A stretch of DNA of 37,609 nt from Nitrososphaerales archaeon (GTDB lineage: Archaea > Thermoproteota > Nitrososphaeria > Nitrososphaerales > JACPRH01), in assembly GCA_030754585.1 (NCBI GenBank), contig JASMAB010000005.1, positions 1 through 37,609 on the forward strand, written 5' to 3'. The position numbers and the translations under genes are program-made. The notes below the pieces were generated by a model. The model saw only the letters and a program-made list of their open reading frames with translations, ran no database searches and was not told where the DNA came from. Shown one piece after another: positions 12,769 through 16,448 of the stretch; position 1 is the first letter of the stretch; each line of letters opens with the position of its first letter.

Positions 12769-12852
12769 GCCTCGATAGCTTAGTGGTAAAGCGTCTGCCT
12801 CGTAAACCATCGAGTAAGCAGGAGATCGTGGGTTCAATCCCCACTCGAGGCT
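12769..12852 (+). tRNA. tRNA-Thr(CGT) with 12-nt intron
   Basis: GCCTCGA/TA/GCTT-AGTGGTA-AAGC/G/TCTGC-CTCGTA[intron]A-GCAGG/AGATC/GTGGG-TTCAATC-CCCAC/TCGAGGC/T; mature 72 nt. Confidence 0.92.
12805..12816 (+). other. tRNA-Thr intron (12 nt), position 37/38
   Basis: H CTCG/CGAG with TAA and TAA bulges around a 5-nt loop ACCAT; intron AACCATCGAGTA. Confidence 0.85.
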
Positions 12853-12853
12853 C

Positions 12854-13312
12854 TTATTCATTTCTGTTGCAGCATGTACCTTTTGGAATCAAGTTTCCAT
12901 GAGGACATTTTATAGGATGCCTCATCAAGGAACATATGGCGTTGGTAAATTCATCTGTCATATGATGCTCGATTCCACAGGCAACTTTAGGATCAATTTC
13001 AATTCCCAGAGATTCAACCATAAGACTCTCTATGAGCATCCCGTTTCTAACCATTCGTCTCCCAATCCTGTTGCCTTTTCTAGTTAAGATCACTCCTTCG
13101 CGAGTTTTGTATTTTAGATACCCCTCTTTTTCTAGTTTCTTAAGCATCTGAACAGCACTAGGTGGCGCTATTTTCAGTTTTTGTGAAATAGTTGATATTT
13201 TTACTGGTGATTCACCGGTCTCTTCGATCATCCATACTGCTTCGAGGTACTCTTCCTTATTCTCAGAATCGACAGGATCAACATATAGATGGTTACAACC
13301 AGAGAACTGCAA
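12854..13312 (-). CDS. DtxR/MntR-family metal-dependent transcriptional regulator
   Basis: EYLEAVWMIEETGESPVKISTISQKLKIAPPSAVQMLKKLEKEGYLKYKTREGVILTRKG winged helix; C-terminal metal-binding residues CGIEHHMTDE. Confidence 0.92.
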   Translation of the reverse strand: MQFSGCNHLYVDPVDSENKEEYLEAVWMIEETGESPVKISTISQKLKIAPPSAVQMLKKLEKEGYLKYKTREGVILTRKGNRIGRRMVRNGMLIESLMVESLGIEIDPKVACGIEHHMTDEFTNAICSLMRHPIKCPHGNLIPKGTCCNRNE

Positions 13313-13314
13313 AA

Positions 13315-13458
13315 TTAACTACCCCTTTCTATCCAAGTATCTAGCAATTCTGTCTTCACTTCACCAATGTTTCCTACAATAAGGGCTGCCTCTAAGGCTT
13401 CACAAAATGTTATTAAAAATGGTGCTGCCGAGTTGATTATAGATTTTATAAGTGTCAT
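13315..13458 (-). CDS. 47-aa Ftr1-like microprotein (or truncated iron-permease remnant)
   Basis: Hand translation MTLIKSIINSAAPFLITFCEALEAALIVGNIGEVKTELLDTWIERGS*; FLITFxEALEAALIVG resembles the REALEA(A/L)LIVG segment of Ftr1 iron permeases. Confidence 0.6.
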   Translation of the reverse strand: MTLIKSIINSAAPFLITFCEALEAALIVGNIGEVKTELLDTWIERGS

Positions 13459-13463
13459 TCCAT

Positions 13464-13495
13464 CACCTAGTTAATTAGGTTATCCTAATTAGGTG
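13464..13495 (-). promoter_or_regulatory. DtxR-type operator palindrome overlapping the promoter/5' region of the microprotein-DtxR unit
   Basis: CACCTAGTTAATTAGGTTATCCTAATTAGGTG; core AATTAGG-TTAT-CCTAATT. TATA-like ATTTATAG lies about 25 nt upstream on the minus strand. Confidence 0.65.
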
Positions 13496-13535
13496 AGGCT
13501 AAATAGCTATAAATATTTTTCCATTTATTCTGGGT

Positions 13536-16448
13536 CTATTCAATAAATATGGCTGGTCTATATGGCTTCGAATAAACCGCTTTATCTCTTGGATCATATT
13601 TGTACGAGTCAGTTTCATTATATATGGAAACTTCTGCTCCAAGTTCCTTTTCCAGAAAATCTGTAGCTGTCTTCAGGATATCTGATTCATTAAGAATCTT
13701 TATTTTCAATCTTCTCTTACGCATATCAAGTGGAACTGTTCGAACTTCTTCTATCAGTTTCTTAGTGAATGACGAAACTTGCTTAGCCCTTCTTTTCATT
13801 TCTTCTTTCTGCATTATGCTGCTCATCAATAAACGCATATCTAATGAATCCTGATCTACCGATTGCAGCATCTCTAAGTATACCTTCCATTTCCACTCTG
13901 AAGATGTATAATAGATCACTTTTCTCGGCTTGATATTGGTTACTCTTACTATCTTCAACGTATCCTCCAAGAGATTCTTGATCAACTCTTCTCCCTCCTC
14001 CGCTTCTAGATCAATTTTGGAATTTTCTAATTTGGGCCAAACAGCTGTAGATATGGTCTCTCTATTTCCCATTAGTTCCCATATCTCCTCTGAGATAAAT
14101 GGTGCGAATGGTGCAAGGAGTCTTATGCGGGTTTGTATCACTTCGTAGATCACTGCGGTAATAATTGCTGTTCTATTCTTATCCAAATTAACTTTACTTC
14201 TACGAAGATACCACTGAACGTCTTGATCAGCAATGTAGATTATATTGTGAATAGCCTCACGGCAACGAAGTTTCTCTAATGCATCAGTTGACTGCTTGAT
14301 TATCATTTGGAGCCTGCTGAGCATCCACCTGTCCTCTACTCTAAGTTCTCTCTTATCCAAGGCTCCACGTTTATCTAATGCCCAAACAATCGTACCGTAT
14401 AGTCGTTCAATTCGTTCGTTGAAAGTCTTAACTAAACTGAGACTAATATCTGCGTCCTGTAATAGTTCGGCTGTTGCAAGTATGGCAAGCCTTAGGGGGT
14501 CTGCACCATAGGTTTTTACAGCTTCTCTAAGAGGGATAATATTTCCAAATGATTTGGACATTTTCTTACCATCCATTAAGACGCTTCCATTAATCACTAT
14601 CTGTCTTGGCCAATTAACCTCTGGGAAAATGGCTGAATGGTTGAAAAGGAAGAATGTTAGATGATTTGGGACTAGATCCCGGCCTGAATGTCGACTATCC
14701 AATGGATAGAAGTACTCAAACTCTTCTCGCATTTCTTGCAAAATCTTAATTCCTATACTGCTATTTCGTGCCTCATCTTCAAGATTCCCTTCTCCAAGAA
14801 GAATGTAGTCAAATACATTTTCAGTAAGCTGGTCCTTCGATAAATTATATTTATTTACATACTTTGAAATCAGGTAGTATGACATATAGATTACAGAGTC
14901 AGATAAACTCTCAATTATCCATTCTTTATCCCATGGTAGTTTGGTTCCGAGCCCTGATTCCCTAGCACATGCTTTCCTCTTCAACCAACCAATAGTATAA
15001 TCAAATTCTGGGCGGATTTCTTCAGGTAGTATATCTATCTTATCAATACATTTTCTCGCAAGATCTTTCCACTTCGATTCACCATAATTGATGAACCATT
15101 GCTCTTCGAATATCTTAACCAAACATTCTGTTCCGCATCTACATATTACTGGTCGATTCAATATTTCATAGATAACCTTTCCATTTCCAGCAGTGAAAAT
15201 ATGATCCTTTACTTTGTCTCGAGCATCGGAAATTGACATTCCTTTGTATTTTCCTGTTCCCTCCGCCATCTTACCTAAATGAAACTCATGCTTATACAGA
15301 TCTGATGTAGCATCTTCGAGTTTTGGATCATTTTGATTATCTATCTTCATCTTATTGATAATCTGCTCTGAAGGAATCCCAGAGTATTCCACTGAGGTTA
15401 TTATTACTGGTATTTTGATAGAGTTGATAAGCCCCTCTCGCAATTTATACTTCTGTAATATCTCTTGTCTCTTCCCCAAATCCTTCAATGCCTGATAATC
15501 ATATGGTGCATGAGCTGGAACAGACATGACAACACCGGTTCCATTTCTTGGATCTACAAATGATGCGGGTAGAATAGATATTTTGGTTTTTGATAGTGGA
15601 TTCTCAACTTCCTCTCCAATAAAATCTGATCCTTTTACTTCTTTTTCAATAGTTATTTTCATTGAAAGGTACTGTAGTTTTTCAGCAGCTTCCTGACTTA
15701 TTATCCAAGATTCACCATCAACATTGGCTTTCACATATATGGCTTCAGGATTTATCCAGATATTTGTCACACCGAAAAGAGTTTCAGGTCTAAGTGTAGC
15801 GGTTGGAAGGCGATATTTTTCAAGCTTGAACATAATAAGCGTATATTCACCTATTTCTGGTTCCACATCTCCTAAGGTATCGTGCTGTCCAACAGGGTTT
15901 CTATCTTTAGGACACCACCCCACTGGGTGACTTCCACGTATAATCAAACCTTTTTTTCTGAGTTTATTGAACTGCCAATGAATGAAGGCGCTGTACTGAG
16001 GATCGATGGTAGTGAATTCTCGTCTCCAGTCTATAGAATAGCCTATTTCCTTCATACCTACCTTTATCTCTTCGTGAAAATACTTAGCTATCTTTATTGG
16101 TTCAATTAGAGTTGGGATTATTTCCGGATGGATTTTGTATATTTTCTTAAACGTATCTATAAGATCCTTGTCTCCCTCAGCAATTCTCTTTGACATTGCA
16201 AGAATTGGGGTTCCAGTATAATGAAAGGCCATTGGAAAAAGAACGTTATAACCCTTCATCCGTTTATACCGTGCGTAAACATCTGTTAGAGTATAAGTTC
16301 GACCGTGCCCTATGTGTTGGGGTGAATTGGGATAGGGGTATGCTACAGTAAGATAAAACTTGGGTTTTCCAGGTTCAGGATCGGTTTCGAATATTCGATC
16401 TTTATCCCACCTTTTACTCCACTTCTGTTGTATTACATCCCAATCCAA
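13536..16448 (-). CDS. leuS: Leucyl-tRNA synthetase
   Basis: AYPYPNSPQHIGHGRTYTLTDVYARYKRMKGYNVLFPMAFHYTGTPI (HIGH) and KKMSKSFGNIIPL (KMSKS); archaeal LeuRS architecture. Confidence 0.96.
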   Translation of the reverse strand: MDWDVIQQKWSKRWDKDRIFETDPEPGKPKFYLTVAYPYPNSPQHIGHGRTYTLTDVYARYKRMKGYNVLFPMAFHYTGTPILAMSKRIAEGDKDLIDTFKKIYKIHPEIIPTLIEPIKIAKYFHEEIKVGMKEIGYSIDWRREFTTIDPQYSAFIHWQFNKLRKKGLIIRGSHPVGWCPKDRNPVGQHDTLGDVEPEIGEYTLIMFKLEKYRLPTATLRPETLFGVTNIWINPEAIYVKANVDGESWIISQEAAEKLQYLSMKITIEKEVKGSDFIGEEVENPLSKTKISILPASFVDPRNGTGVVMSVPAHAPYDYQALKDLGKRQEILQKYKLREGLINSIKIPVIITSVEYSGIPSEQIINKMKIDNQNDPKLEDATSDLYKHEFHLGKMAEGTGKYKGMSISDARDKVKDHIFTAGNGKVIYEILNRPVICRCGTECLVKIFEEQWFINYGESKWKDLARKCIDKIDILPEEIRPEFDYTIGWLKRKACARESGLGTKLPWDKEWIIESLSDSVIYMSYYLISKYVNKYNLSKDQLTENVFDYILLGEGNLEDEARNSSIGIKILQEMREEFEYFYPLDSRHSGRDLVPNHLTFFLFNHSAIFPEVNWPRQIVINGSVLMDGKKMSKSFGNIIPLREAVKTYGADPLRLAILATAELLQDADISLSLVKTFNERIERLYGTIVWALDKRGALDKRELRVEDRWMLSRLQMIIKQSTDALEKLRCREAIHNIIYIADQDVQWYLRRSKVNLDKNRTAIITAVIYEVIQTRIRLLAPFAPFISEEIWELMGNRETISTAVWPKLENSKIDLEAEEGEELIKNLLEDTLKIVRVTNIKPRKVIYYTSSEWKWKVYLEMLQSVDQDSLDMRLLMSSIMQKEEMKRRAKQVSSFTKKLIEEVRTVPLDMRKRRLKIKILNESDILKTATDFLEKELGAEVSIYNETDSYKYDPRDKAVYSKPYRPAIFIE

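Follow-up and report, generated by a model that had tools for sequence, protein, structure and literature searches.

Probable remnant of an FTR1 iron permease gene before dtxR and a candidate tandem DtxR-type operator at iron genes in a family of Nitrososphaerales archaea

The window analysed here is a 37,609-nt stretch of contig JASMAB010000005.1 from a Nitrososphaerales archaeon. Between leuS and the gene of a DtxR-family regulator, it carries a 47-aa open reading frame (ORF) preceded by a putative promoter and operator. The genomes of the family are denoted G000 (that of the window), G001 (same genus) and G002, G003 and G004 (same family, other genera), with contigs given after a colon. The features of the locus are as follows.

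12854..13312, minus strand: DtxR-family regulator gene (dtxR), 152 aa, assigned by Pfam and structure matches; its TTG start aligns with the ATG starts of the orthologues
13315..13458, minus strand: 47-aa ORF, the putative FTR1 stump; residues 1-29 correspond to the FTR1 N-terminus, and residues 30-47 appear to be unrelated read-through past a deletion junction
13372..13458, minus strand: FTR1-homologous stretch of the stump, from tblastn against the FTR1 of G002 and G004; it ends at ALIVG
13462..13467, minus strand: putative Shine-Dalgarno-like GGTGAT, 5' of the stump ATG, read from the sequence
13475..13502, no strand assigned: candidate tandem DtxR/IdeR-type operator, TTAGGTTATCCTAA at 13475-13488 (exact) abutting TTAGGTGAGGCTAA at 13489-13502 (one mismatch)
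13507..13513, minus strand: TATA-like box TTTATAG, adjoining the operator as in the other 8 copies
13536..16448, minus strand: leuS, the upstream neighbour, which adjoins FTR1-dtxR in G002 and G004 and dtxR in both G001 contigs

The translation of the ORF agrees with the preliminary description of this DNA, and so does the close spacing noted there: its stop codon ends at 13315, 2 nt from the TTG start of dtxR at 13312. That description also saw in the peptide a likeness to FTR1 iron permeases, which is borne out. Residues 1-29 are 65% identical to the FTR1 N-termini of G002 and G004 (tblastn, E ~1e-6), and a local FTR1 profile scores 16-20 bits on the stump, whereas the highest-scoring of 200 shuffles reaches 5.5; Pfam PF03239 gives no match on the 47-aa protein. 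The homology ends near residue 29, and the apparent deletion junction lies at about 13371/13372, with other alignments pushing the homology 1-3 residues further. The first motif reads CEALEA in the window, and the arginine of REALEA is present in every FTR1 N-terminus compared. The stump thus aligns with the N-terminus of the permease (PF03239) from the same archaeal family and the same operon position, but roughly 90% of the protein, with the second REGLE motif, is absent, and the first-motif arginine is lost in this allele. In the window, the stump has neither the REGLE/REALEA helix motif nor the complete transmembrane domain of a functional FTR1; a single hydrophobic segment spans residues 11-29 (mean Kyte-Doolittle 1.7). 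For residues 30-47, alignments to the FTR1 3' end or the intergenic region were no better than shuffles. The length of this tail, 18 open codons, is expected by chance (mean of 15 codons to a stop at 37% GC, P 0.29 for at least 18). The window holds no FTR1 sequence beyond the stump, and searches of G000 and G001 with the family model and the G003 protein found no other FTR1 in these bins, which are 62% and 88% complete, respectively.

In G002, G003 and G004, dtxR is immediately preceded by a complete FTR1 gene (310, 306 and 310 aa, respectively), with Pfam FTR1 matches at E 1e-55 for the G002 protein and 1e-59 for the G003 protein. These genes sit at the exact position of the stump, before the orthologous dtxR. 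G001 has two syntenic leuS-dtxR-ferredoxin contigs, C27 and C62, so this bin is apparently a mixture of two lineages within the genus. Over 6.2 kb, G001:C27 and the window share 99.74% identity (13 differing positions), and G001:C27 has the same stump with the same junction; the single difference between the two stump alleles is CGT (Arg) in G001:C27 versus TGT (Cys) in the window. The cysteine that was first remarked on in place of the REALEA arginine is a within-species difference, because the 99.7%-identical contig G001:C27 keeps the arginine in its stump. G001:C62 has no FTR1 codons. There, the leuS-operator-dtxR order is kept, dtxR follows the operator within about 20 nt, and the gene is 85% identical. 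So far, one species carries the stump, on two contigs that both belong to draft metagenome bins. One family holds three states, i.e., an intact FTR1-dtxR operon, a stump, and complete loss of FTR1. We infer that FTR1 was lost, not gained, because the other two genera keep the intact state. With homology at the orthologous position and intact FTR1 genes in relatives, the locus is very probably what is left of an iron-responsive FTR1-dtxR operon from which all but the first 29 FTR1 codons have gone. The earlier idea of a stump of a deleted permease gains support from these intact operons, from the complete loss in the sister lineage, and from the further copies of the operator before feoB and FTR1, described below.

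The regulator had been assigned to the DtxR family, and it matches both Fe_dep_repress (PF01325, E 5e-19) and Fe_dep_repr_C (PF02742, E 2e-18). It has a winged-helix DNA-binding domain and a metal-binding/dimerisation domain, its nearest solved structures are MntR, ScaR, IdeR and DtxR, and homologues are present in most of the genomes of the order searched. The Fe(II)-type ligand set of DtxR and IdeR comprises Met10, Cys102, Glu105 and His106. The roles of Met10 and Cys102 among the metal ligands of these proteins have been described, and archaea are said to control iron through DtxR homologues (PMC10317159). In our alignment to the DtxR/IdeR ligands, the Cys and the Glu-His pair align (C-G-I-E-H), with Glu at the Met10/Asp8 position. 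Compared with the MntR ligands, D8 is replaced by Glu and E99 by Cys, and H77 has no His counterpart. We take iron, not manganese, to be the metal, because the candidate target genes are iron genes and a Cys stands in for the Glu of MntR; in other respects the ligand set is non-classic. Beside dtxR, at 12769-12852 on the plus strand, is a tRNA that matches an Rfam model and was missed by ARAGORN. Its length of 84 nt points to a possible intron in the anticodon loop.

A 14-bp minimal IdeR/DtxR consensus, TTAGGNNNNCCTAA, has been proposed on the basis of crystal structures and binding assays (PMC8464063). The most fitting reading of the operator in the window is a pair of abutting TTAGGNNNNCCTAA sites. 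Each half corresponds to the 14-bp IdeR site, and the operator lies at promoters of iron genes and of the regulator gene, but the arrangement differs from the classic 19-bp box TTAGGTTAGSCTAACCTAA: in the latter, two such sites overlap and their centres are 5 bp apart, whereas the sites in the window abut, with centres 14 bp apart. A palindromic DtxR-type operator had been proposed here, and the palindrome is present and of DtxR type. However, the unit is more aptly taken as the tandem 28-mer at 13475-13502. The outer CACCTA/TAGGTG palindrome (13464-13495) was discarded as the operator, as its arms are not conserved beside the other copies; one arm overlaps part of the GGTGAT. The TATA-like element reported near the operator is the TTTATAG at 13507-13513.

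A genome scan for the palindrome had been suggested, and once redrawn as the 28-bp tandem, the operator recurs. With up to 3 mismatches, it is found in 9 places in the five family genomes (~7.2 Mb), versus 0 for a control pattern. All of these precede FTR1, feoB, dtxR or the stump: stump-dtxR (G000, G001:C27), dtxR (G001:C62), FTR1-dtxR (G002, G003, G004), the second FTR1 of G004, which has an FtrD-like domain (G004:C23), and feoB (G000:C24, G003:C20). A TATA-like box directly precedes the operator in 9/9, the 8-mer starting 11-13 bp from the operator edge. TTAGGNNNNCCTAA thus occurs at metal-gene promoters above chance in its tandem form. Single 14-bp sites with one mismatch were rejected as evidence, with 12 matches versus 41 for the control pattern; only the tandem form is specific. 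A perfect tandem operator lies at G000:C24:2276-2303, in the genome of the window itself and ~5 bp ahead of the feoB start codon, which points to a small iron regulon. DtxR-type operators precede feoB in all four of the five family genomes in which this gene was found; feoB was not found in G001 (bin 88% complete). The G002 and G004 operators consist of three 14-bp sites set apart from one another, one of them with a mismatch in G002; a fused dtxR-feoA gene comes next, and feoB after it.

We propose the following mechanism. The operator is predicted to cover the transcription start region, because the TATA-like box is just before it and the usual archaeal spacing would place the start there. 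When iron is sufficient, metal-loaded DtxR dimers would bind the two abutting 14-bp sites, and their presence on the start region would block initiation. The promoter is thus most likely iron-repressed, having formerly driven FTR1-dtxR and now driving dtxR alone. With FTR1 gone, dtxR would repress its own promoter and iron uptake would have been handed over to FeoB. The probable cotranscription and autoregulation put forward in the preliminary description are supported by the intact FTR1-dtxR operons, the FTR1 loss in the sister lineage and the operator copies that precede feoB and FTR1. The 47-aa ORF would be a by-product of translation at the former FTR1 start, and at most its translation may help ribosomes to reach the TTG of dtxR by coupling. 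In the FTR1-dtxR spacer of G003:C91 and G002:C14, a TATA-like TTATATAG/TTTATAG lies ~30 nt before the dtxR ATG, which hints at a second, leaderless dtxR promoter in these intact operons; the element is weaker or absent in the window.

A stronger role for such coupling can be envisaged, in which the ORF has been kept as a translational leader: ribosomes would load at GGTGAT, terminate 2 nt short of the TTG, reinitiate, and so set the level of DtxR. The 2-nt gap, the weak TTG start and the good Shine-Dalgarno-like sequence 5' of the stump fit this, and a leader is compatible with the decay history, being what the deletion left over. However, dtxR of the sister contig G001:C62 starts directly behind the operator with no leader, and the open tail is of chance length. 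We therefore regard a retained leader as unlikely. Still less likely, in our judgement, is that the truncated FTR1 start was recruited as a short translated leader which sets DtxR synthesis, possibly with a nascent helix that tethers to the membrane. If true, an internal deletion would have turned a transporter operon into a pure feedback loop.

The product had also been described as a single-helix membrane peptide, and a functional peptide of this kind in iron uptake or sensing would be in keeping with the hydrophobic stretch and with translation signals that look intact. The search with the 47-aa protein argues against it. Among 300 genomes of the order, its matches were confined to the two stumps and three FTR1 N-termini, all in the five family genomes, with no independent family. 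The conservation check that had been proposed for the ORF thus went against a microprotein, the stump being confined to one species. In addition, the arginine common to the FTR1 N-termini varies between the two alleles, the second REGLE motif is gone, and the tail has no detectable relatives. We consider a functional peptide highly improbable. We give equally little credence to an assembly artefact, in which most of an intact FTR1 would have been left out during assembly. In its favour, both sequences come from metagenome bins and G001 seems to be a mixed one, but the same junction occurs in two assemblies that differ at 13 positions, no FTR1 fragment was found elsewhere in either bin, and G001:C62 shows an independent or further loss of FTR1.

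We favor ordinary gene decay, with an informative regulon and an unlikely functional peptide, as the reading of the stump. The lasting interest of the locus is in the operator and the decay series. The latter can be read within one archaeal family, from an FTR1-dtxR operon to a stump with dtxR to dtxR alone, with the operator kept throughout. The case also advises caution, in that orthologous operons should be checked before short ORFs are named microproteins. The operator, i.e., two abutting 14-bp IdeR-type sites behind a TATA box, is a precise and recurring candidate for iron genes of Nitrososphaerales, for which our literature search found no description of a DtxR regulon. Archaeal DtxR-family regulons were reportedly treated by Leyn and Rodionov in 2015 (cited in PMC8464063), and the likeness to the present case is that of a DtxR regulator controlling archaeal metal homeostasis genes.

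Across the order, the tandem with 14-bp spacing and up to 2 mismatches gives pattern matches in 67/300 genomes, a count that includes G263, G273 and G277, which should be left out as their matches are apparently simple 14-bp repeats. DtxR-type sites precede a ZIP transporter (G024:C38) and a phosphonate-type periplasmic binding protein (G054:C11), and in a different arrangement a VIT1 family protein (G020:C24). In another family of the order, short TFIIB-repeat proteins (PF00382; G061:C47, G032:C2) have a tandem box with 2 mismatches at their start, which suggests an iron-controlled transcription factor B paralogue.
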